From the NCBI GenBank assembly GCA_038731975.1, contig JAVYQJ010000009.1:1-62860 (forward strand): 62,860 bases of DNA. Direction: 5' to 3'. The notes under the pieces were generated by a model. The model saw nothing but the letters and a program-made list of their open reading frames with translations. It did no database searches and was not told the origin of the DNA. The stretch comes from Thermofilaceae archaeon. GTDB taxonomy: Archaea; Thermoproteota; Thermoprotei; Thermofilales; Thermofilaceae. Position numbers and translations under genes: made by a program. Positions 3,012 through 41,615 of this stretch are shown one piece after another (the first letter of the stretch is position 1; the number at the start of each line of letters is the position of its first letter).

Positions 3012-3952
3012 CAGCTCTCACCCAAGCGTGCACCGGTGAAGTAGAAGAACACGTCGTCGAGCGTCGGCTCCTGCACCATGATTCTCTTAACCCTCACTCC
3101 AGCTTCCAGCAGCTTGCTGACAATCTCGGCGGCTCGCTCCTCACCCTTGTTGAGGTACGCCACGATCCTATCGTTTTGCAGGATTAGCTTCCCCATACCG
3201 TCCAGCTTGGATAGTACCCTCTCGACCCTCTCTTTGGAGCCTTCAAAGCTAATCTCTACGACGTCACCGCCGGGAACCCGATCCTTAAGCTCTTTTACCG
3301 TGCCCAAGGCGCGCAGCTCGCCTTTGTAGATAATGGCGATCCTCTCGCAAATCCTCTCCGCCTCAAACATGTCGTTTGTAGCGACTATTATCGTTGAACC
3401 CTCATCCCTCATCGCCCTCACAACGTCCCAGAGAGCGTGCTTCGTCAGAACATCAACTTGTGCTGTGGGCTCATCGAAGATCGCCAGCTTTGGTCTCTGA
3501 ATGAGGACCTTTGCGATCTCCAACTTCTTCCTGGTACCCCCACTCAATTGGTAAAACTGCTTGTTCCTGTGCTCCCAGAGCTCCAGCTTCTCCATCACTT
3601 CCCTAACAACCTGCTTTGCTCCGCTAGAGGAGTAGCCAACGATTTTCGCGTGCCAGAGGAGAAGCTCGTAGGGCGTGTCAACCCACATGGCTTTGGGCTC
3701 CTGGAACGCGATACCTACGTACCTTCTGACTATGTCGTCCTCCTTCGTTACGGAATGCCCGAATACGTAAATGTCCCCGCTCGTTGGCTTGTACACGGTC
3801 GCGATGGTGAGGAGGGTTGTGCTCTTACCCGATCCGTTGGGACCGAGTAGACCAAACATCTCCCCCTCATAGATCTCCAGGTTGAGGTTGTTGACAGCGA
3901 CTACGTTCCCGAACTTCTTGGTGAAGCCTGCGATTTTAACGGCTACCCCCAC
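3011..3952 (-). CDS. ABC transporter ATPase subunit (ABC-2 exporter)
   Basis: This is a nucleotide-binding subunit with Walker A GPNGSGKST, signature LSGGTRKKLEIAK and Walker B LAIFDEPT in the usual order, followed by a C-terminal extension typical of the DrrA/CcmA group. It powers the two permeases encoded directly downstream. I chose the GTG at 3952 over a TTG at 3967. The GTG has a GAGGGG ribosome-binding sequence before it and lies about 28 bases from a TATA box, whereas the TTG would be only 13 bases from the box. Confidence 0.93.
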   Translation of the reverse strand: MGVAVKIAGFTKKFGNVVAVNNLNLEIYEGEMFGLLGPNGSGKSTTLLTIATVYKPTSGDIYVFGHSVTKEDDIVRRYVGIAFQEPKAMWVDTPYELLLWHAKIVGYSSSGAKQVVREVMEKLELWEHRNKQFYQLSGGTRKKLEIAKVLIQRPKLAIFDEPTAQVDVLTKHALWDVVRAMRDEGSTIIVATNDMFEAERICERIAIIYKGELRALGTVKELKDRVPGGDVVEISFEGSKERVERVLSKLDGMGKLILQNDRIVAYLNKGEERAAEIVSKLLEAGVRVKRIMVQEPTLDDVFFYFTGARLGES

Positions 3953-15087: not shown

Positions 15088-16245
15088 GTGGAGGAAAAGT
15101 TGAGATGGTTTGTAGAGGCGCGTTTCGGCATGTTCATCCACTGGGGGCTATACTCGCTGCTCGGTCGGGGGGAATGGGTAATGTTCCTGGAGGGAATCCC
15201 CCGCGAGGAGTACGCGAAGCTGGCTGAAAGCTTTAGGGCTGAAAGATTCGATGCGGAGGAGTGGGCTCTCACCGCGAAAGAGGCAGGTATGCGATACATA
15301 GTCCTCACAGCTAGGCACCACGATGGTTTCAGCCTGTTCGATACTAAGCTCTCCGACTTCAAGTCGACGAATACCCCGGCTGCCCGAGACGTGGTTGCCG
15401 AGTACGTGGAAGCCTGCAGGAAAGCCGGGTTAAAGGTCGGACTATACTACTCCTTGCTTGACTGGAGATGGGAGGAGTACTGGAGGGGGCCACAGAGAGA
15501 TCCAAAGGGGTGGGAAAGGTTCCTCGAGTACGTGCACGGACAGGTTGAGGAGCTCTGCAGTAACTACGGCCGGATTGACGTACTCTGGTTTGATGGGGGT
15601 TGGCCCTACAAACCAGAGGATTGGAGGGCCCAGGAGCTCCTAGATAAAGTGAGACAGCTGCAGCCGCACATTCTCGTTAACAACAGGACCGGGCTTCCTG
15701 GGGATTTCGACACGCCTGAACAGCATGTGCCGTGGTGGTCGCCGCCTAGGAGGGCTTGGGAGACCTGCATGACGATGAACGACAGCTGGGGGTACTTCGA
15801 AGGGGACAGGAACTGGAAGACTCCCCGCCAGATCATCAGCACGCTGGTTCAAGTCGTCAGCTTAGGCGGCAACCTCCTGCTGAACGTGGGACCGAGAGGT
15901 GACGGAAGCTTCCCTCCAGAAGCGGTCGAGATTCTCTCCCACGTTGGCTCGTGGCTCCGCAGGAACGGCGAGTCAATCTACGGTGCAACAGGAGCTCCAT
16001 TCACAACCACAGTGGGCCCGACGACGATGAAGGGAAACAAGGTGTACGTTCACGCACTTCGTTGGCCTGGATCAAAGATCTCAGTGGCCAACGTAGGCTT
16101 CAGAGTACTAGGAGCGCGCCTGCTAGCGGACGGTAGAGAGCTAAAGTTCAGGCAGGACGGAAGCAGGGTTTTCTTAGAGGGTTTACCCCCTCAACCCCCA
16201 GATCCCTACGATACTGTGATCGAGCTGGAGATAGAACTCCGATAG
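15088..16245 (+). CDS. Alpha-L-fucosidase (GH29)
   Basis: The 385-residue protein has the GH29 signature throughout: ARFGMFIHWGLYSLLGRGEW, IVLTARHHDGFSLFDTKLS, GLYYSLLDW, and IDVLWFDGGW with the nucleophile aspartate in WFDG. It continues with GGNLLLNVGPRGDGSFP. The enzyme removes alpha-L-fucose by a retaining mechanism. It has no signal peptide, so fucosylated oligosaccharides must be imported first. It is divergent from the sugar kinase and followed by a Gfo/Idh/MocA dehydrogenase gene. The length is close to other archaeal fucosidases lacking the extra C-terminal domains. Confidence 0.93.
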   Translation: MEEKLRWFVEARFGMFIHWGLYSLLGRGEWVMFLEGIPREEYAKLAESFRAERFDAEEWALTAKEAGMRYIVLTARHHDGFSLFDTKLSDFKSTNTPAARDVVAEYVEACRKAGLKVGLYYSLLDWRWEEYWRGPQRDPKGWERFLEYVHGQVEELCSNYGRIDVLWFDGGWPYKPEDWRAQELLDKVRQLQPHILVNNRTGLPGDFDTPEQHVPWWSPPRRAWETCMTMNDSWGYFEGDRNWKTPRQIISTLVQVVSLGGNLLLNVGPRGDGSFPPEAVEILSHVGSWLRRNGESIYGATGAPFTTTVGPTTMKGNKVYVHALRWPGSKISVANVGFRVLGARLLADGRELKFRQDGSRVFLEGLPPQPPDPYDTVIELEIELR

Positions 16246-16251
16246 GGCGCA

Positions 16252-16261
16252 GGCATATTAC
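16252..16261 (+). promoter_or_regulatory. TATA box for the Gfo/Idh/MocA gene at 16284
   Basis: GGCATATTAC is centred 27 bases before the GTG at 16284. Confidence 0.45.
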
Positions 16262-16283
16262 CTTCCTCCCTCCCCATTACCGC

Positions 16284-17318
16284 GTGAAGGTAGGTGTTAT
16301 CGGCTGTGGGAGCATCGGAAAGGTGCACATTAAGAATCTGAAAGCTGTAGGAGCTGAAGTTGTCGCGGCTTGCGATATAGATGAGGAGGAGTTGAAGTAC
16401 GTTAAAGCCAACTTCGGCATCGATAACCTATACAGGGACTACCGCGATTTAATTGCGCGCAGCGACATCGATGCCGTCGTTGTTGCTACGCCGAACTACC
16501 TGCACCACAGGATGACGATTGACGCACTCCGGGAGGGGAAGCACGTCCTTTGCGAAAAGCCTCCAGCGCTCACAGCCCGGGAAGTTAAAGAGATGTACGA
16601 TGAGGCCCGCAGGCGCGGGAGAGCACTCCTCATCGGTCTCACTCTGAGGTTTAGAGCCGATAGCCGGGCTTTGAGGAAGTACGTGGAGGAGGTCGGTATA
16701 GGAGAGGCTTACTACGCCCACGCCTCCCTACTGAGGAGGTCCGGCATCCCAGGCTACGGCAGCTGGTTCACGCGCAAGGCTGAAGCCGGTTCGGGGCCCT
16801 TGTACGACATCGGCGTCCACGCGCTGGACATCACCATGTGGTTGATGAACAATTTCCGTGCAAGGGAGGTTTACGCCTCAACCTACGCCAAGTTTGGTCC
16901 GCGCGGGAAGGGTTTGGGCACTTGGGGCAAGCCAGTTCCGGGAGGCCCCTTCGATGTCGAGGACTTAGCGTCTGCAATGTTCAAGATGGAGGATGGAGCT
17001 ACAATCTTCCTTGAGGTCAGCTGGGCAGCCCACATCGCGGGTGATAGCTTCCGCGTACTGGTGCTGGGCGAGAGGGGAGGGCTTGAGTTTCCGGGCGCGA
17101 AAGTTTACAGCGAAGAAGGGGTCCTTGTTGATAAACAGCTTAGGTACCAAGAGGAGGATCCTTATGTCGTTGAGATGCGCCACTTCGTGGAAGTCGCAGA
17201 AAAGGGGGTGGAGCCCATTACAAAACCCGATGAGATGGTCGGTCTGCAGGCTGCGCTTGAAGCGGCTCTCAAGTCGGCAGCTGAGGGTAGAGTGGTGAGG
17301 GTTTCAGAAGTTCTTTAG
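16284..17318 (+). CDS. Gfo/Idh/MocA family NAD(P)-dependent dehydrogenase
   Basis: The 344-residue protein has the Rossmann motif VGVIGCGSIGKVH at the N-terminus, the catalytic lysine in HVLCEKPPAL, and the GxHxxD active-site motif in YDIGVHALDI. Members oxidise sugars, inositols or glycosides, often at C3, with tightly bound or exchangeable NAD(P). It follows the fucosidase gene but has its own promoter. Its end overlaps the convergent Gfo/Idh/MocA gene by four bases. The substrate is unknown, and a sugar freed by the neighbouring glycosidases is a reasonable guess. Confidence 0.9.
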   Translation: MKVGVIGCGSIGKVHIKNLKAVGAEVVAACDIDEEELKYVKANFGIDNLYRDYRDLIARSDIDAVVVATPNYLHHRMTIDALREGKHVLCEKPPALTAREVKEMYDEARRRGRALLIGLTLRFRADSRALRKYVEEVGIGEAYYAHASLLRRSGIPGYGSWFTRKAEAGSGPLYDIGVHALDITMWLMNNFRAREVYASTYAKFGPRGKGLGTWGKPVPGGPFDVEDLASAMFKMEDGATIFLEVSWAAHIAGDSFRVLVLGERGGLEFPGAKVYSEEGVLVDKQLRYQEEDPYVVEMRHFVEVAEKGVEPITKPDEMVGLQAALEAALKSAAEGRVVRVSEVL

Positions 17319-18391
17319 AGGCTCTTGGCAGCGCGCTGCAGCTCAAGGAGGATCTTTGTAACTTTGTAACCCCACTGAACAGAGGGGAGAGGCTCAACCC
17401 CTTTAACGATGCACTCCACGAGGTGATCAACGGATTCGTGGTAGTACGGTCTTATTCCTCCAATCTCCTTCCTGCCGAGCACCCTTGTGGAACCCTTCGC
17501 CACCACTGTGATCTGAGGGGTCCACGGCTCAACTGTCGCAGCGCCGTCAGTGCAGTAAATCTGGATTGGTGGTGCGCGAAGGCCGTGGAAGGTGACGTAG
17601 TTGGCGAGAATCACCGCTAGGCCTCCATCATATTCGAGGATCCCTGCGAAGTTATCGAACGCTGTGACTTCAACGGGTAGAGTAGGCTGAACGTCGTGGA
17701 AGTAGTAGGTGCCACGCCCATACGTGTCCGGGCGTATCGAGGCTGTCACCGTATCAGTATCGATAATCAACCTAGTTTTCAGGAGTATCGAGCCGAGCGC
17801 AGCCACGCGTTTCGGCTCTCCGAAAAGGGTTAAGAGTCGAGCTACATCGTATACCGCTAAGTCAAAGAGTACGCCCCCACCCGCCTCCTCTTTCAGGAAT
17901 GCCTCCGACCACATGGGTCCGCTGTGCCCCGTGTGCCACACTGAGAAGCAGTGGCGCCCCAACCGGGTGAGCTCTGCTTTCAACACTCGGTAAAGGGGGG
18001 AGAGGAGCGCGTCGGATGGCTCTGCAAGGGCGATTACACCGCTCTTCTCAACGCTCTTCACTACCTTCTCGGCGTCCTCAAGCGAAGTAGCCATTGGTTT
18101 TTGGACGATGAAGTGCTTGCCTTGCTCGGCGGCTCTGATTGCTAATGGAGCGTGAGATTCGTGGCTCGTCGCGATCACGACTGCCTCCACCTCTGGATCC
18201 GCGAGAAGCTTCTCCGGATCTGGGTACCACCTTTCCGCGCCCCACAGCTCAGCGCTCCTCCTAGCCCTCTCAGCGATCTTATCAGATACAGCTACAAGCC
18301 TATGGTGCCTAGCAATGTAGGGCAGGTAGTAGTTGTTCGCCACGTTTCCACAGCCGATGACGCCGAACGATACTTTCCTACCGGTGCTCAT
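17315..18391 (-). CDS. Gfo/Idh/MocA family protein with altered active site
   Basis: The 358-residue protein keeps the Rossmann motif SFGVIGCGNVANNYY, but the usual EKP triplet reads Q97-K98-P99. The GxHxxD motif also appears as DLAVYDVARL without the histidine. The catalytic lysine is still present, so it may use a different substrate class or act as a non-classical dehydrogenase. It has its own TATA box inside the 3' end of the upstream methyltransferase gene. Its function is unknown. Confidence 0.87.
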   Translation of the reverse strand: MSTGRKVSFGVIGCGNVANNYYLPYIARHHRLVAVSDKIAERARRSAELWGAERWYPDPEKLLADPEVEAVVIATSHESHAPLAIRAAEQGKHFIVQKPMATSLEDAEKVVKSVEKSGVIALAEPSDALLSPLYRVLKAELTRLGRHCFSVWHTGHSGPMWSEAFLKEEAGGGVLFDLAVYDVARLLTLFGEPKRVAALGSILLKTRLIIDTDTVTASIRPDTYGRGTYYFHDVQPTLPVEVTAFDNFAGILEYDGGLAVILANYVTFHGLRAPPIQIYCTDGAATVEPWTPQITVVAKGSTRVLGRKEIGGIRPYYHESVDHLVECIVKGVEPLPSVQWGYKVTKILLELQRAAKSL

Positions 18392-19115
18392 CGCACTGTT
18401 CTCTAGTCGCGGGTTTAAACGGCTTGCTCATGAGCTGCCCCAAGCGGACTCTCCGGCCTGCAACGATCTCGTACCGCACCTTGGGGAGCTCCAGTCTGCA
18501 ACCGTAGTCCGCAATGCTCCTCGCACGTCCCGTCACGGCTGAAAAAGCCTCGTCATCCTCAAGGAGGGTTAAGAGGTAGGCAGCCAGTTCCTCGCTGAAG
18601 AGCACGCCGCTGGCCGTGACAGGGTAGCAGTAGGGCAGGTGAATCTCCACCCCCTCACCTCTCAGGACTACTCCGAGAGCAACCTCGAGGAGCGAGAGTT
18701 CTTCCCCCTCTGCTACCCGCGCAGCGATGTAGGCTGCCCCGTCGATGCTCAGCTGGCAGGAGCCTAAGGTTCTCGACTCGGCGTTCAACCTTTCGGTCAA
18801 CAGCTTCCTGGTTCTCTTTCGGGGTGGGAAGTCGCCCATTATCCCTCCAATCACAACGTACTCGAAGCTGTCAAAGTCGTCCGGCGAGAGGGGTTTGACG
18901 GCCGAAGGATCGAGCACGAGAATCCGTTCCCCCTCCGTCAACTCCCCCACGCTAAACTCGACAACCTCGGCGAACGGTTGCAGACACTCCTGCTCGCTCC
19001 TCTCCTTGACGTTCGTGATCAGTAGCTCTCCGACAAGTTCAGCCGCGTGCTTGTACTCCAAATACACCCAGGGGGAGACTGTCGGCTCGAGGTGCTCAAT
19101 TACGAACTTCGCCAT
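18378..19115 (-). CDS. SPOUT methyltransferase, Sfm1-like (DUF431)
   Basis: The 245-residue protein begins FVIEHLEPTVSPWVYLEYKH and contains LLITNVKE and YVVIGGIMGDFPPRKRTR, matching the DUF431/SFM1 family of SPOUT-fold S-adenosylmethionine methyltransferases. The yeast member Sfm1 methylates an arginine of ribosomal protein S3, and archaeal members were earlier annotated as RNA methyltransferases. The archaeal substrate is not known to me. The 3' end overlaps the following dehydrogenase gene by 14 bases. Confidence 0.8.
   Translation of the reverse strand: MAKFVIEHLEPTVSPWVYLEYKHAAELVGELLITNVKERSEQECLQPFAEVVEFSVGELTEGERILVLDPSAVKPLSPDDFDSFEYVVIGGIMGDFPPRKRTRKLLTERLNAESRTLGSCQLSIDGAAYIAARVAEGEELSLLEVALGVVLRGEGVEIHLPYCYPVTASGVLFSEELAAYLLTLLEDDEAFSAVTGRARSIADYGCRLELPKVRYEIVAGRRVRLGQLMSKPFKPATREQCDEHR
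18411..18420 (-). promoter_or_regulatory. TATA box for the Gfo/Idh/MocA gene ending at 17315
   Basis: GTTTAAACCC on the minus strand is centred 25 bases before the ATG at 18391. It lies within the coding end of the methyltransferase gene. Confidence 0.45.
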
Positions 19116-20890: not shown

Positions 20891-20911
20891 CAGCTTAGTG
20901 CTGAGTTGAGT

Positions 20912-22843
20912 GTGGCAGGGCAAGAAAGCTCTACGACGAGGGTCTCGGGTCTCACAAAGCGTACTCTGCTAATCCTAACGATGCTAATCCTCTTACTAGT
21001 GCCTTCAAACATCTACATAGCGCTGGCCGGCGGCGTATTCGGAGTTTTAAGCAATTACACGCTCGTACTCCTGTTCATATACGTAAGCCGGTTTCTGGGC
21101 GCCGATCTGTCCAAACAGGAGGTCTACGCCCTCTTCTACGCTCTGTCTTTTCAGGTATTCTTCAGCGCGTATCCCCTGATATACAGAGCCTATCTGAGGG
21201 TTGGCGAGGTTACAAACTCGTTCCTGATAGCGGGGCAACCGGTGGCTAAGCTTTTACCAACGTGGCTTGCACCCCCAGCTGATTCGCCGATATTCGCGCT
21301 CAGAACCTTCTTCCACCCCCACATGCTTGTACCGCTTCTCATCGCTCTCACATTCACCGTGCTCTGGCTCATAGCGGAGCTATCCATGATACTGCTAACC
21401 TCCTACCTCTTCGTTGAGGTGGAGTCGCTACCCTTCCCCTTCGCGCAGATAGACGCAACGTACATCTCCATGCTGACCGATCGCCCCGCCGAATGGCTCC
21501 GAGGCTTTCTACCCATGGTCGGCATCTTGTTCTTCGTATCCACGCTGATATACCTGCCAAGCGTAGGCATAATCGTAGGCTTACCCGTGCCAGCCATAGG
21601 CTTCTACGATTTCACCCCTCAGATAACCGACTACCTGCCAGGCGGCATCATAGGTGTGGATTTTACGCCGTGGGCTTTCTTCTCGGGCTTCATGATGCCG
21701 CTTGATGTGACGGCAGCCGCACTGGTTACTTCGATCCTGGTTTGGACTATTCTGAATTCGCTCTTTGTAACGCACCCCTTCTTCAGGTCCTTCTTCCCCG
21801 ACTGGGCTCAGGAGTACCAGAAGGGCATGACATTCTGGATGATCTGGGAGAGATCCACGCTGCGGATATGGGCGCCGATTCAGATGGGCGCTGCACTAGG
21901 CATGTCAATCCTCCTCGTCGTCAGGTACAGGAAGGAGATCGCTAGGGCACTAACTGCGCTGGCAAGGGCCGGTTCAGCTCAGGCGAGGGAATACCCGCCA
22001 CTGCCCGTGCTCCTAGCAATGTTCTTCGTCGCAACGGGAGCTGCGAGTGTTCTGTACTGGATGCTCATGCCCGGCTTGCCCCTCTACGTGATCGCTGCGA
22101 TGGTGATGGGGCTGGGCCTCCTAATACCGATCACAAACGCGTACATGACTGGGAAAGCGGGTCCCAGCCTGGGAATGCCACCCTACGCTTGGCAGGCCGT
22201 AGTTTACTCCATGATAGACGTTCTGCCTCCTTCAACACGCGTCGCGGCCTTGTTGTTCGGGCCTCCCATGGTGGGTGGAATGACGGGTGGCGGTGTCCAG
22301 GCGATTAAGGTGGCTAGCCTAGTGGGTGCGAGGCCGATGGATTTGGTGAAGATCATCGTGATATCCTTCGTCATAGGCACTATCGTGAACATCCTGGTGT
22401 TGGACGCGATGTGGAAGCTGGCACCCATACCCAGCATGGCTTATCCGTCCACCGTTGGCATGAGGGATCAATCGGCGTACGACTGCGTTGTGATGTCGGG
22501 AGTGCTACCTCTGAAGCCTGAGGTGATCCTACCCTCAACTGGCTTCTTCCTGCTGTTATTCGCAGCCCTAGAATCCATGAACATCGTTTTCCATTGGCCC
22601 TTATCCATCGCGGGCGTAATGATGGGGTTGACAACAAACCCTGGTACGGCGATAATGAGGTTCATAAGCTCTCTTCTTGCGAGCTACATAGTGCCGAAGC
22701 TGATTGGTAGAGAGAGGGCTGCTCGTTGGTCCGGGTTCAAAGGAGTTGTAGCGTCCGGAGCGTTGCTGGGTGATGGGCTGGCAAGCTCCATCTTTACTCT
22801 AATAGGTTTAATAGGCAGGGCGAGCTGGACATGGCCGTGGTGA
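20912..22843 (+). CDS. OPT-family-like oligopeptide transporter
   Basis: This polytopic membrane protein of about 643 residues has 14-16 hydrophobic segments and glycine-rich loops. They resemble the OPT family (GPPMVGGMTGGGVQ, AGKAGPSLGMPPYAWQAVVY). OPT proteins import small peptides or metal-chelate complexes using the proton gradient. Assignment is by overall pattern and should be treated as family-level only. The last 13 bases overlap the start of the giant M28/FtsX-like gene, so the two are translated from one transcript, which implies that transport is linked to the surface protein. Confidence 0.75.
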   Translation: MAGQESSTTRVSGLTKRTLLILTMLILLLVPSNIYIALAGGVFGVLSNYTLVLLFIYVSRFLGADLSKQEVYALFYALSFQVFFSAYPLIYRAYLRVGEVTNSFLIAGQPVAKLLPTWLAPPADSPIFALRTFFHPHMLVPLLIALTFTVLWLIAELSMILLTSYLFVEVESLPFPFAQIDATYISMLTDRPAEWLRGFLPMVGILFFVSTLIYLPSVGIIVGLPVPAIGFYDFTPQITDYLPGGIIGVDFTPWAFFSGFMMPLDVTAAALVTSILVWTILNSLFVTHPFFRSFFPDWAQEYQKGMTFWMIWERSTLRIWAPIQMGAALGMSILLVVRYRKEIARALTALARAGSAQAREYPPLPVLLAMFFVATGAASVLYWMLMPGLPLYVIAAMVMGLGLLIPITNAYMTGKAGPSLGMPPYAWQAVVYSMIDVLPPSTRVAALLFGPPMVGGMTGGGVQAIKVASLVGARPMDLVKIIVISFVIGTIVNILVLDAMWKLAPIPSMAYPSTVGMRDQSAYDCVVMSGVLPLKPEVILPSTGFFLLLFAALESMNIVFHWPLSIAGVMMGLTTNPGTAIMRFISSLLASYIVPKLIGRERAARWSGFKGVVASGALLGDGLASSIFTLIGLIGRASWTWPW

Positions 22844-25800
22844 GAGTAGTGCGGGGACATCGGGTGTTGCTCGCGGCAGCGTTAATACTGTTCATTGCGC
22901 CGCTTCTAGCCTTGGCTCAGGAGGGTGCTAATCCCGTACAGGAAGCCATTCGCATCTCTCTGAGGGGGTACAACTACACTCGCGTCTTAGAGCTGGCAGA
23001 GAGCATAGCGTCGCTTGGGCCACGCGCTCCCGGATACCCTGGGTACGAGAGAGTTTTAGGGTTGATAGTCAACGAGGTTAAGGCTCTTAACCTGACTTAC
23101 ACTGTTCAAAACTTCACTATTCTGGCTCCCGTAGAGACTGAGAGCTACGTAGAAGTTTTAGAACCTTACCACCTCGTTTTAAGAGCTTACAGCCTCTGGC
23201 CGCATGGAGGGATAGCAGCGGGCGCGGGCGTGAAGGAGGCTCCGCTCGTCTACGTGGGGAGGGGTGGGTTGGAGGAGTTCGACGGGAAACCAGTTAACGG
23301 GAGTATCGTCGTGATGGAGTACGATGGTAGCGGCAGCAACTGGTTGAACGCGCTCCGCTTTGGTGCGAAAGCGGTCATCTTCCTCGGAGGGGGCAACCCG
23401 CAGCGTGAAGCCCTCGGAAAGTTCGACCCTATCACCCCTGTACCCTTCATGCGTCTCTACCTGGAGCCTAAGGAGGCTGCAGCCCTCAGGGAGCTATTGA
23501 GGAGGGGGCCCGTAAGGGCGAGAGTTCGCACCGACATGGAGCTGCGCGATGTCACCGGCCACAACGTGCTTGTGGAAATCCCCGGTACCGAGAAGAGGGA
23601 TGAGATCATTATGTTCGTAGCCCACTTCGACGCATGGTGCGTAGCGCCGGGACTGGCGAACTCGACGGAAGAGGCGATTTCCACCGCAGCTCTCCTCGAG
23701 CTCATGCGGTACCTGGCTTTAAACAGACCTCCGCGCACCGCCTGGTTCCTCTTCACCTCCGGACACTGGAACGGTTTAGTGGGGCCCCGCTACTTTATCG
23801 AGCACTTCATTCTGCGGCGACCCGATCTCATCCGAGGCGAAAGAACGATCTGGTACATCATGGGGCTCGATATCTCGGCCGATATCCCCATTGCCTCGTT
23901 AATCTACGTGGGCCACTTCTACCAGACATCGGGTAGGACTTTCATAACGACAAAGTTCTACTGGCTTCAGGGCATGGTGAACACGTATGCGGGATTAGTG
24001 GGAGAGTACCTCAATGAAACGGGTTTACCGCGAAGCGCGGCTTTGCGAAGTGCTATACGCACGCTAGGCGTCGTAAGGCCCATCGATCTAACTCACGGGC
24101 CCGAGTGGATGTGGTCCAGCACGATGAGCAAACCGTATGTTTTGGACACCGAGCCGTTCGTAATCGCGGGGATGGCGGCATTCACGTTGAGAACCTCCTA
24201 CAGTTACAGACCCTTCGAGGGCGAACCCGTAAGCGATCTACACTACGTGAGGAGCAACTTCGAAGACAGGGTTGTACCGCAGCTTGCGTCAGCTGTAATG
24301 ATCGCTAGCGCGCTCTTGAATGAGCCGACAATCGGCGTAATGAAAAGCCTGATACTGCCAACCAGAAGGCATCCACTACTGTACTGGGGCTTCTTGCAAT
24401 TGCAAGTGCAGGTGCTCCAGTACAACATCACTAAAGGCTGGTATGATCCAGTTCCCTACGCGATTGTTAGGGTTAGCAGGTGGAGCTCGTACCCCTTCGC
24501 CTGGATGTTAGCCAGGGCTGACAGTAACGGTACTGTTTTGATCTACGGTGTTACGCCGCAGGGCCTTAACGCGTGGTACGTCGAAGCTTGGAAGATTCTG
24601 AACGAGACGTGGATGATCGCACCGGCGTGGGGCATGCGGAGCGGGGGGCCCACATGGATTAACTTGCTCGTGGAAAGGGGTTACACGAGCACTTACGTTA
24701 TGCCAATGAATGTCAGAGTCCTCGTGGATTTGTACAACCCAACCTTGATGAGGCGTACACTCGATGATCCTAGGTACGCTTCCTCGAACGTTTGGGCCGG
24801 TGGCGGAGCGTGGCCCACGGTGTTCGAGACTTCAACGGGAATCACGCCTTTGTACACTTTTGTCTCTTCAAACGAGAGAAGCGGCGTGTACCTGGTGTTT
24901 GCTAGCTATGTTCAGAATGTTACTGTGACCCTATCGATCGGCGCGCGCTGGCCGACAGGTATCGCAATCGAGGCTAAAAAGACCCTATGGGCGCTAGACT
25001 ACGCTGTTGGCACGTACACTATAGCGGCGCAGAGGTACTCGGTGCTTAGTGAGCGCGAAGTAAGAAGGCTTAGCGCTGACCTCATGATTGGCTACGCTGA
25101 GCATTACCTCCGCCAGGCTGTTAACGCTCTGCGCAACAACACGTGGAGCGCGGCTTTCAGGAACTCGCTTGCAGCCTGGAGTTTTGCTTCCCGCGCGTAC
25201 TCCAACGAGGTGATGCCTCTCTACGAGGAGTGCATAAGGTCAGCCGTCACGCTAGTACCCTTCATCATCGTCACCGGCTACTTCTTGGAGAGGCTGCTCA
25301 CAAAGGGCGAGGGGCTCCGCATGATCTTCAACGTTCTCGCTTTTCAGATCGCTCTATTCGTGATCTACGCGTTTACGCACCCGGCTTTCTGGGTGGTTCC
25401 AAGCACGCTGCTAGCAGCTCTCGCCATCGGGATGCTAATTCTGATGACCATAGTCCTGTGGATATTCTACAGGGAGGCCTCAGATATCGTCTCCCGGGTA
25501 GCGGCCCAGCTTCTGGGGTACCACGAGGTAGTTACAGAGAGGACAGCTGCCATGCTGATGGCCGTTTCCCTGTCGACTGAGAACATGAGGAAGCGCCCAC
25601 TCAGATCGATACTGACGCTTATCCCGATAACGGTCTTCGCGATGGCGCTCGTCTCACTCGCCTCAGTCTCGCCTTACACAGCTGTGCTGCCGAAGCCGAT
25701 GGAGCTCGTTACTGCCAACTTCTACGGGTTCACCGTAAAAAGGGCATATGCTGTGCTGGGCGATATGCTAGACGTTCCAACGATTGAAATGTTGAGGGCT

Positions 25801-27330
25801 ATCGTTGGCGAGAAAGGCGTCGTGAGCCCACGGGTAGTCTACTACTCGCCATCAGTGATCAACCTAGGACCCTACGCCCTCGCTTTATCGCATAACGTCA
25901 GCATCCCCGTACCAGTCGCTTTGGGCCTTACACCCGAAGCAGCTTCCCTACTACTACGCAACGCGATGGTTAGAGGGCTTCCTAAGCCGTTCTTCAGCGA
26001 GGAGCAGCCCGCCATCGTGCTACCGGTGTCGATGGCTAACCAGCTGGGGGTTGACGTGGGCGACGAAATCGAGCTGTATGGTATGAAGTTCGTTGTAACA
26101 GGTATCTTCTCGGAGACAGCGATGGACGCTTTGAAAGACCCCGATGGTAGGAGGCTCGCTCCCGTCGACTCTATCTACTACGCTCAGCTCCACGGCTTCG
26201 CCGTCCCGTTAGGCGGCGCGATAGTACCCCAACCGTACGCGTGGAGCAGGGTCGTGATCATACCGAGCGGTGTAGCGCTGAAACTGGGCGGAAGGGTCTC
26301 CGTGGTAGACATCATCCTCAACCCTGATGTGGGAGAGGAAGAGTTTGAGAGGCTCGCTCACGAGATAGCCTACGCCGTTGACGCTCTATGCTACGGACAG
26401 AGGAAGGATGGCTCTGTAATCGCCTACTCGAGGTTCCCAACATACATGGCTCTAGGTTGGGAGATGATGGTTGTGCCCTTTGCGATCACCTCCTTGAGCA
26501 TCGTGGTCTCCTTGCTAGGCAGTATTAAGGAGCGAACGAGAGATCTTTTCACCTACAGCAGCGTGGGGTTATCTCCGAGTGGGGCCATGCTCATGTTCAT
26601 CACGGAGTTCGCCGTCTACGGGTTCATGGGTGCGACGCTCGGATACTTCGCCGGGTGGGCGCTGAGCAAGGTGATGAGAGCCGTGGGCGTGCTACCTGTA
26701 ACGTTCGTTTTTAACTACGCATCCGTAGCGATCTCGCTCGTCCTCTTCCTAGTGCTGCTGTCTACGCTGGCCGCAGCAGCTTATCCCTCTTACTTAGCCT
26801 CAAGGATAATCACACCCTCACTTGAGAGGAAGTGGAAGGTTCCAAGAACGCCGCGAGGTTCTCTATGGGACATTCCACTACCGTTCCGAGTCCCAACAGA
26901 GAGGGAGGCACAGGCTGTGCTGCTGTACCTGCAGGAGTACTACCTGGGGGCTGGCTACGAGAAGCGCTTGTTCAAGGTCTCCTCTGATCCCAAGGTGGAT
27001 ATCAAGGAGAAGAAGCTTGTAGTCAATATCAGGTTGTACCCGTACGATGCTGGAACCGAGCAAGAAGTGAATCTCTACTTTGTCAGAGAGAGGGTTGGCG
27101 GATGGAGAGCCGCAGTGAGCTTGAAGCTGCTTAAGGGTCTCGGCAGCGTCTGGACGGGGCCCTCGCAGTACGGCTACCTGGACGACTTGAGGAAGCAGAT
27201 GCTGCTCTGGGGAACGCTACCTTCGTCTGAGCGAGCCAAATACATAAGAAGGGTCTACGAGCTCCTTGCGGAGAGCGGGGAGGTGATGAAGTCCGATCGA
27301 GCGATCGGTGAACGAGAGCCTAAGAGCTGA
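22831..27330 (+). CDS. Giant surface protein: M28-peptidase-like ectodomain fused to FtsX/MacB-like permease
   Basis: The 1499-residue protein begins with a signal peptide (hydrophobic 12-28, AQ at the likely cleavage site). A PA-like insert follows (about 120-225), then an M28-peptidase-like domain (about 245-500) with HFDAW at H265-D267. The usual bridging Asp and catalytic Glu pair are not apparent (GLANSTEEA and TSGHWNGLVG in their place). A beta-rich regulatory-like domain (about 540-600) and three membrane spans (about 808-880) come next. A second unit has the FtsX/MacB topology: one span near 930, an external domain with MANQLGVDVGDEIELYG, and spans near 1212, 1255 and 1300. A soluble C-terminal part of about 170 residues ends it. 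No ATPase gene is adjacent. It is co-transcribed with the OPT-like transporter. Peptide capture or processing coupled to uptake is a plausible but unproven role. Confidence 0.8.
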   Translation: MAVVRVVRGHRVLLAAALILFIAPLLALAQEGANPVQEAIRISLRGYNYTRVLELAESIASLGPRAPGYPGYERVLGLIVNEVKALNLTYTVQNFTILAPVETESYVEVLEPYHLVLRAYSLWPHGGIAAGAGVKEAPLVYVGRGGLEEFDGKPVNGSIVVMEYDGSGSNWLNALRFGAKAVIFLGGGNPQREALGKFDPITPVPFMRLYLEPKEAAALRELLRRGPVRARVRTDMELRDVTGHNVLVEIPGTEKRDEIIMFVAHFDAWCVAPGLANSTEEAISTAALLELMRYLALNRPPRTAWFLFTSGHWNGLVGPRYFIEHFILRRPDLIRGERTIWYIMGLDISADIPIASLIYVGHFYQTSGRTFITTKFYWLQGMVNTYAGLVGEYLNETGLPRSAALRSAIRTLGVVRPIDLTHGPEWMWSSTMSKPYVLDTEPFVIAGMAAFTLRTSYSYRPFEGEPVSDLHYVRSNFEDRVVPQLASAVMIASALLNEPTIGVMKSLILPTRRHPLLYWGFLQLQVQVLQYNITKGWYDPVPYAIVRVSRWSSYPFAWMLARADSNGTVLIYGVTPQGLNAWYVEAWKILNETWMIAPAWGMRSGGPTWINLLVERGYTSTYVMPMNVRVLVDLYNPTLMRRTLDDPRYASSNVWAGGGAWPTVFETSTGITPLYTFVSSNERSGVYLVFASYVQNVTVTLSIGARWPTGIAIEAKKTLWALDYAVGTYTIAAQRYSVLSEREVRRLSADLMIGYAEHYLRQAVNALRNNTWSAAFRNSLAAWSFASRAYSNEVMPLYEECIRSAVTLVPFIIVTGYFLERLLTKGEGLRMIFNVLAFQIALFVIYAFTHPAFWVVPSTLLAALAIGMLILMTIVLWIFYREASDIVSRVAAQLLGYHEVVTERTAAMLMAVSLSTENMRKRPLRSILTLIPITVFAMALVSLASVSPYTAVLPKPMELVTANFYGFTVKRAYAVLGDMLDVPTIEMLRAIVGEKGVVSPRVVYYSPSVINLGPYALALSHNVSIPVPVALGLTPEAASLLLRNAMVRGLPKPFFSEEQPAIVLPVSMANQLGVDVGDEIELYGMKFVVTGIFSETAMDALKDPDGRRLAPVDSIYYAQLHGFAVPLGGAIVPQPYAWSRVVIIPSGVALKLGGRVSVVDIILNPDVGEEEFERLAHEIAYAVDALCYGQRKDGSVIAYSRFPTYMALGWEMMVVPFAITSLSIVVSLLGSIKERTRDLFTYSSVGLSPSGAMLMFITEFAVYGFMGATLGYFAGWALSKVMRAVGVLPVTFVFNYASVAISLVLFLVLLSTLAAAAYPSYLASRIITPSLERKWKVPRTPRGSLWDIPLPFRVPTEREAQAVLLYLQEYYLGAGYEKRLFKVSSDPKVDIKEKKLVVNIRLYPYDAGTEQEVNLYFVRERVGGWRAAVSLKLLKGLGSVWTGPSQYGYLDDLRKQMLLWGTLPSSERAKYIRRVYELLAESGEVMKSDRAIGEREPKS

Positions 27331-40860: not shown

Positions 40861-41615
40861 GCGGGATTAACGATGATGTACTTGTTGTAGAACAGTTAAG
40901 GGCTGGGTACAAGGGTCACGAAGTACTCCATGGGGTCGACTTGAGGGTTGGTAGGGGTGAGAAGGTAGTCATCATGGGACCGAGCGGCTCTGGCAAGAGT
41001 ACGCTGCTCAAGTGTATCGTTCTGCTGGTGAAGCCAAAGAGCGGCAGGATCGTGCTAGACGGTGAAGAGATCACGGATCACCGGGTGGATGTAAGAAGGG
41101 TAAGGGCGAAGACGGGCTTCGTCTTCCAGCAGTACAATCTGTTCCCCCACATGACCGTGCTGCGCAACCTGACTCTACCGCTTGAGGTTGTGAAGAAAGT
41201 GCCGAAGAAGGAGGCCGAAAGAAGAGCGATGGAGGTGCTGAAGATGTTCGGCATGGAGGAGTTCGCCGAGAGGTATCCGTTGCAGCTGAGCGGCGGTCAA
41301 CAGCAGCGGGTGGCAATAGCACGAGCCCTGCTGATGGATCCCGTTCTACTGCTCCTAGATGAGCCCACTTCCGCTTTAGACCCCGAGCTGAGAAGGGAGG
41401 TTCTCGAAGCGCTCATTAAAATTGCTAGGCAGGGGAGATCAATGTTGATCGTAACCCACGAGCTGGATTTCGCGGAAGCTGCAGCAGATAGAGTTGTGCT
41501 GATGGACAGGGGAGTGATCGCTGAAGAAGGAACTCCCGATGAACTATTCTACAACCCAAGGAGCGAGTGCGGGAAGAAGTTCTTCGTTGAGCTTAAGGCT
41601 GTAGCTAGAAGCTAG
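40857..41615 (+). CDS. Amino acid ABC transporter ATPase
   Basis: The 252-residue ATPase shows Walker A GPSGSGKST, the Q-loop FVFQQYNLFPHMTVLRNL, signature LSGGQQQRVAIARAL and Walker B LLLLDEPTSALDPE, which are the features of GlnQ/HisP proteins. It completes the three-gene importer with a four-base ATGA overlap. The ORF ends four bases before the convergent hypothetical gene. Confidence 0.94.
   Translation: MSGINDDVLVVEQLRAGYKGHEVLHGVDLRVGRGEKVVIMGPSGSGKSTLLKCIVLLVKPKSGRIVLDGEEITDHRVDVRRVRAKTGFVFQQYNLFPHMTVLRNLTLPLEVVKKVPKKEAERRAMEVLKMFGMEEFAERYPLQLSGGQQQRVAIARALLMDPVLLLLDEPTSALDPELRREVLEALIKIARQGRSMLIVTHELDFAEAAADRVVLMDRGVIAEEGTPDELFYNPRSECGKKFFVELKAVARS

Follow-up and report, generated by a model that had tools for sequence, protein, structure and literature searches.

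We analysed a 62,860-nucleotide stretch of DNA (hereafter the window), which is contig C9 of the 1.85 Mb genome of a Thermofilaceae archaeon. Two overlapping genes in it, here called A and B, probably form one cassette of a modular, multi-copy system resembling the type VII ATP-binding cassette (ABC) transporters, in which a shared motor would serve exchangeable giant heads, and the head encoded here is paired with carriers of the oligopeptide transporter (OPT) superfamily. The reading is carried by the predicted folds of both proteins, the conserved linkage and co-evolution of A, B and a second carrier, A′, and the co-occurrence and occasional clustering with them of ATPase genes usually encoded elsewhere. 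An initial annotation of the window had proposed that A and B make up a peptide capture and import machine in which the transporter takes the place of the ATPase. It had overlooked the inactive M28 site of B, the multi-copy nature of the family with its third partner, and the dedicated ATPases elsewhere in the genome.

Gene B encodes a predicted FtsX/MacB-type permease with an inactive M28 domain

The features of the two genes, all on the forward strand, are as follows (window coordinates; residues are those of B).

20912-22843, forward: gene A, predicted OPT-superfamily carrier, 643 aa; GTG start (an alternative TTG start at 20906 gives 645 aa)
22831-27330, forward: gene B, giant surface protein with a pseudo-M28 ectodomain and a predicted FtsX unit, 1499 aa
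22831-22843, forward: overlap of A and B, 13 bases
22831-22920, forward: signal peptide region, residues 1-30 (hydrophobic segment 4-22; 12-30 in the family)
22942-24300, forward: M28-like ectodomain, approximately residues 38-490 (profile match to 2ek8 over 38-327; weak second stretch to approximately 488)
23764-23769, forward: His-Trp, residues 312-313, where M28 has Glu-Glu (0/87 homologues with Glu at either position)
25231-25467, forward: three membrane spans, residues 801-879 (hydropathy)
25606-25662, forward: FtsX span 1, residues 926-944 (hydropathy; MacB alignment)
25678-26430, forward: MacB-like extracytoplasmic domain, approximately residues 950-1200 (PF12704, E 0.001, below cut-off; AlphaFold2 (AF2) model)
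26452-26781, forward: FtsX spans 2-4, residues 1208-1317 (PF02687 over cut-off; Foldseek; hydropathy)
26521-26604, forward: loop between FtsX spans 2 and 3, residues 1231-1258, the ATPase coupling position in MacB
26848-27327, forward: C-terminal cytosolic domain, residues 1340-1499 (conserved family-wide; AF2)

The 13-base overlap is as first described, and profile, Pfam, hydropathy and AF2 analyses bear out the layout that had been read for B by eye (signal peptide, M28-like ectodomain, three spans, FtsX/MacB one-plus-three unit). By hydropathy and AF2 the MacB-like domain lies between FtsX span 1 and spans 2-4, and a cytosolic tail follows. B matched the Pfam families M28 (E 1.5e-9, residues 245-325) and FtsX (E 9.7e-10, residues 1215-1325; 39 bits against a curated cut-off of 25.5) above their cut-offs, and MacB_PCD below its own. 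A profile built from 46 B proteins matched the M28 aminopeptidase 2ek8 (E 6e-33, residues 38-327) and, over its C-terminal half, MacB (5gko, E 4e-14), LolC/LolF and YtrF. An AF2 model of residues 300-1499 (predicted local distance difference test (pLDDT) 80.7, predicted template modelling (pTM) score 0.72) yielded Foldseek matches at probability 1.00 to LolC/LolE, HrtB, MacB and YbbP, with LolC/LolE and YbbP the closest.

MacB meets its ATPase through a major coupling helix situated between spans 2 and 3 (PMC5985334). Within this loop of B, R1235, G1246 and P1249 are invariant in 87/87 homologues and E1234 is kept in 82/87. By its FtsX domain, one-plus-three spans and conserved coupling loop, B is thus predicted to be a type VII ABC (FtsX/MacB) permease. 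It shares the FtsX/MacB unit, an extracytoplasmic domain and the coupling loop with LolCDE, MacAB-TolC, FtsEX-EnvC and YbbAP-TesA, and YbbAP is likewise paired with a hydrolase-type partner; a MacB/LolD-type ATPase is also present in the B-bearing genome. B differs from these systems in its giant pseudo-M28 ectodomain, three extra spans and cytosolic tail, in the presence of several heads per genome, and in that its ATPase is not adjacent, the constant neighbour being an OPT secondary carrier.

The paired glutamates of M28, one catalytic and one zinc-binding, are absent from all 87 B homologues, which mostly have His-Trp there, and only 1/87 has a His where the last zinc histidine of M28 aligns. 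Because the Glu pair is replaced family-wide at residues 312-313, the ectodomain is, judged by sequence, a pseudo-peptidase and not an active M28 peptidase. Two known pseudo-peptidases, the transferrin receptor and nicalin, were among the matches of the B profile. B thus resembles both the M28 aminopeptidases (2ek8, YwaD) and these dead relatives in sequence and fold, matching through the inserted domain, and differs from the aminopeptidases in its lost Glu-Glu and in the fusion of the domain to an FtsX unit. We rejected the idea that an active peptidase supplies a peptide importer, the active site being dead.

The B model also gave weak matches to Bet v 1/START-like folds (E 0.04-0.1 over approximately 150-180 columns; matched query positions not reported). 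From its order of strands and helices, the C-terminal cytosolic domain (26848-27327) is their likeliest source.

Gene A encodes a predicted OPT-superfamily carrier

The window copy of A gave no OPT match when searched singly against Pfam, falling below detection. Its sole Pfam match, FixP_N, was dismissed as chance, and PsaK, the sole match of the A profile among PDB sequences, as noise. Among 52 close homologues, 23 matched PF03169 (OPT; best E 9.9e-19). An AF2 model of A built from a 56-sequence alignment (pLDDT 90.9, pTM 0.91) matched barley Yellow Stripe 1 (YS1) in Foldseek (7wst, E 2.8e-10, probability 1.00, TM-scores 0.66/0.70; 7wsr, E 1.4e-9); the next match reached only E 0.05, so that the barley YS1 structures are its only significant PDB matches. 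Because the homologues match PF03169 and the model matches YS1, we assign A to the OPT superfamily as a predicted carrier, and both fold assignments of the initial annotation, OPT for A and FtsX for B, are supported. A shares the fold of the superfamily (PF03169; HvYS1, PDB 7wst), with a structural alignment over its whole length, and differs in being a divergent archaeal subfamily that is linked with B and, in most cases, with a second carrier as well. Barley YS1 itself imports Fe(III)-phytosiderophore in a proton-coupled manner, working as a homodimer with an elevator-like mechanism (PMC9691689).

A, B and a second carrier are partners across archaea

Both A and B are paralogue families with several copies per genome. 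Relatives in the genome_contigs set came from Thermofilaceae/Thermofilales, other Thermoprotei, Brockarchaeota, Bathyarchaeota, Calditenuaceae and metagenome-assembled genomes (MAGs) labelled Thaumarchaeota. A is present beside all 46 full-length B genes in the relatives' loci, some of which were picked because both genes had been seen there, and lies at most 430 bp away in 44; the gene order is A>B in 15, B>A in 21 and divergent in 10. When these loci were merged with others found by B alone, giving 87 distinct B genes, A lay within 3 kb of 77. The remaining B genes comprise six of Calditenuaceae/HR02 type and others near a contig end. Because A is this close to 77/87 B genes, the notion that B homologues never stand next to a transporter fails, and the conserved co-occurrence in archaeal genomes that the initial annotation had named as a check is present.

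Mirror-tree comparison of A and B distances gave r = 0.889 (maximum of 1000 shuffles, 0.074). With pairings shuffled only within genomes, which removes species history, the observed value was 0.888 against a mean of 0.246 and a maximum of 0.518. The functional partnership of A and B is therefore conserved far beyond the window.

The first hidden Markov model of A also picked up a second group of proteins, at 39-72 bits as against at least 415 for full-length A, and it was through separating these from A that A′ was recognised as a third partner. A′ is approximately 680 aa long, carries DUF6785 and DUF6784 (PF20581/PF20580), and its homology to A spans the entire protein (hhalign probability 100, E 8e-40). 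It lies within 3 kb of 58/87 B genes and co-evolves with both A (r = 0.91) and B (r = 0.935). It is thus a member of the DUF6785/DUF6784 proteins, distinguished here as part of a conserved A-A′-B set.

Immediate neighbours of the A/B cassettes (n = 113) included radical SAM (S-adenosylmethionine) proteins (8), adenylate kinase (5), URO-D (5), Gfo/Idh/MocA (4), B12-binding (4) and MttB (3) proteins. Apart from adenylate kinase, these may hint that the substrates in some lineages are methylated compounds or sugars. Upstream of the pair in the window, positions 15088-19115 encode an alpha-L-fucosidase, two Gfo/Idh/MocA oxidoreductases and an SFM1-like methyltransferase. In Calditenuaceae/HR02-type genomes (L172:12630-14532, L174:12646-14548, L176, L177, L200), the place after B is taken not by A but by two conserved genes of 339 and 296 aa; the L174 pair had no Pfam match.

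A MacB/LolD-type ATPase is usually encoded away from B

As first noted, no ATPase gene adjoins the A/B pair in the window, the closest ABC ATPase genes lying approximately 17 kb (3461-3895) and 14 kb (40926-41372) away. Its genome holds 11 FtsX genes, and an ABC ATPase adjoins only two of them (contigs C3 and C24). A motif search for ATPases next to B in the relatives' set found none except one match at a locus edge, and in the genome_contigs set only L215 has an ATPase in an operon with B. B's FtsX unit therefore stands without an adjacent ATPase in nearly all loci, the ATPase lying inside the cluster in L215, L277 and L278. ATPases near B in the Calditenuaceae-type loci L172, L174, L176 and L200 were rejected as partners: they form a distant clade beside permease-like genes of their own.

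Ranking ATPases by LolD similarity produced a candidate motor. Sampled genomes with A and B carry a MacB/LolD-type ATPase whose gene has no FtsX neighbour, whereas G009 and G011, which are of the same family and lack A and B, have only FtsX-adjacent ones. This orphan, ATPase2 (G000:C1:114850-115581; L237:7851-8585, forward strand), has a sister, ATPase1, on G000:C3 (L244:4848-5576, reverse strand), which adjoins a mini-FtsX (L244:5621-6256, reverse strand) of 211-241 aa without the large ectodomain. Across the B-bearing genomes the mini-FtsX measures 190-240 aa. The two form separate clades, and B-positive genomes usually carry both. Among the relatives, the ATPase subfamily is present in 17/18 A-positive and 2/43 A-negative genomes; among 200 genomes drawn evenly from the phylum, the counts are 24/25 with B and 8/175 without (Fisher p = 4e-23, ignoring phylogeny). 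The eight exceptions mostly carry other giant FtsX proteins. The subfamily also recurs, at 66-72% identity, in 17/18 genomes reached via other loci (Brockarchaeota, Bathyarchaeota, Calditenuaceae and others).

In some lineages the motor genes lie with the cassette. In two closed genomes (G116 and G204; L277/L278), B>A′>A and two further genes face mini-FtsX>ATPase1>ATPase2, approximately 14 kb in all. Bathyarchaeon B63 has the order ATPase1>A′>B (L215), and some Bathyarchaeal loci bring together ATPase1, ATPase2 or mini-FtsX. In Calditenuaceae, B is apart from A, of which each genome has one copy; in four genomes approximately 4.9 kb separates this A from the single ATPase, and in G142, a mini-FtsX, a 1057-aa FtsX protein, A′, A and the ATPase fall within approximately 22 kb. 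The ATPase probably acts on B in trans; if so, the lesson would be that an ATPase absent next door is not an ATPase absent.

Several further proteins accompany these genes. A small CPCG-motif protein (zinc-ribbon-like) adjoins mini-FtsX or ATPase2 in several lineages (L259:2244-2582, L277:3200-3601, L279:5642-5977), and in the closed genomes the interval from A to the motor genes encodes an 841-aa protein with a signal-peptide-like N-terminus (L277:6396-8921, G116:C1). A 1792-aa protein (L106:8185-13560, reverse strand; G000:C2:94185-99560) joins a glycoside hydrolase family 2 region, with sugar-binding, immunoglobulin-like and TIM-barrel parts, to a B-type FtsX unit; no ATPase or OPT gene adjoins it, and it is possibly a further head type for the shared motor. 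Proteins at L114:4179-9584 (1801 aa) and L126:2171-7600 (1809 aa) are of similar length and show the same kind of weak match to B. Giant FtsX proteins of approximately 970-1060 aa without an adjacent ATPase are found at L105:6614-9667, L118:15965-18862 and L283:5565-8738, one of them with a carboxypeptidase-regulatory-like domain.

A proposed mechanism and its alternatives

In the mechanism we favour, mini-FtsX and one B would each supply one half of the permease, in the manner of LolC and LolE, in physical contact with a dimer of ATPase1 and ATPase2 below. This one motor, encoded elsewhere, would serve many B-like heads. ATP turnover would move the B ectodomain, whose dead M28 domain would bind a ligand instead of cutting it, and B would hand this ligand to, or gate, the secondary carrier A (with A′ at most loci), probably for uptake. 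In known type VII systems ATP-driven motion is likewise passed to the outer side of the membrane and the substrate is not moved through the permease (PMC12646458, PMC5985334). Motor sharing is known from the type I ABC importers, in which the multitask ATPases MsmK and MsmX each serve several permeases (PMC7658222, PMC4519317). The likeness is one ATPase for several permeases; the difference is that sharing here would occur in a MacB/FtsX-type system, for which we found no precedent. The full hybrid, in which a genome-wide motor of mini-FtsX and two ATPases powers many giant heads, pseudo-peptidase and others, and one head type loads or gates OPT carriers, so combining primary and secondary transport in one complex, is a more tentative proposal, and we would not yet bet on it.

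Several observations weigh against the favoured mechanism. A′ is missing from the window's own A/B locus, and the ATPases of its genome are on contigs other than that of A and B. The 1200-residue B model has low query-normalised Foldseek TM-scores (0.12-0.15), though at probability 1.00. The genomes in the co-occurrence counts are not phylogenetically independent. Three cassette-bearing MAGs (G025, G076, G221) are without the ATPase, perhaps through incompleteness or contamination, while G017 and G105 encode the ATPase but no giant FtsX head. Mini-FtsX and ATPase1 could also be a separate transporter.

This last point belongs to an ATPase-free alternative, in which B assists the OPT carrier as an ancillary subunit that binds the ligand. 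The FtsX unit of B would then be a relic, or a passive scaffold set in motion by the ion-driven cycle of the OPT protein, and ATPase1/2 and mini-FtsX would make up a transporter of their own. The accessory 4F2hc, whose catalytically dead ectodomain sits on amino-acid exchangers, offers a comparison. The missing neighbour ATPase at nearly all loci, the tight A-B and A′-B co-evolution and the dead M28 domain would all suit such a subunit, but it leaves the co-occurrence of the ATPase subfamily with B, its clustering with A, A′ and B in three lineages and the invariant coupling loop unaccounted for, and we consider it unlikely.

Less probable still is that the motor and B form an extraction machine, as in LolCDE or YbbAP-TesA, which takes a compound, hydrophobic or linked to a lipid, out of the outer leaflet or else pushes it outward, A and A′ handling the product and nutrient import not being the main task. 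The closest structural matches of B, LolC/LolE and YbbP, are in its favour, as is the precedent of YbbAP-TesA, a type VII ABC system with a hydrolase partner (PMC12646458). Against this, the protein whose OPT fold A matches is an importer, and several cassettes per genome suit varied substrates better than a single housekeeping task.

That an active machine captures and imports peptides, with the OPT carrier replacing the ATPase, as the adjoining OPT and M28 folds had suggested, is very improbable given the dead M28 site, the ATPases in trans and neighbouring genes that give no peptide evidence. What stands of the initial proposal is the functional partnership of A and B. The replacement of the ATPase by the transporter is probably wrong, as a MacB/LolD-type subfamily and mini-FtsX co-occur with B and cluster with A, A′ and B in some lineages. 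A peptide substrate is unsupported: the M28 catalytic residues are lost, the closest solved OPT structure is an iron-phytosiderophore carrier and the neighbours are mixed.

Implications

We found no report of the A-B pair in open-licence papers; most of the subscription literature lay outside this search, so priority is unproven. If the favoured reading is true, the assembly would be a new variant of the type VII ABC systems, and possibly more: as far as we have found, no earlier one is linked to a secondary carrier, and none has a single motor that feeds many exchangeable heads. DUF6785/DUF6784 and the ATPase-less giant FtsX proteins of TACK archaea would gain a suggested function, and the nutrient uptake of these mostly uncultured thermophiles would become testable.

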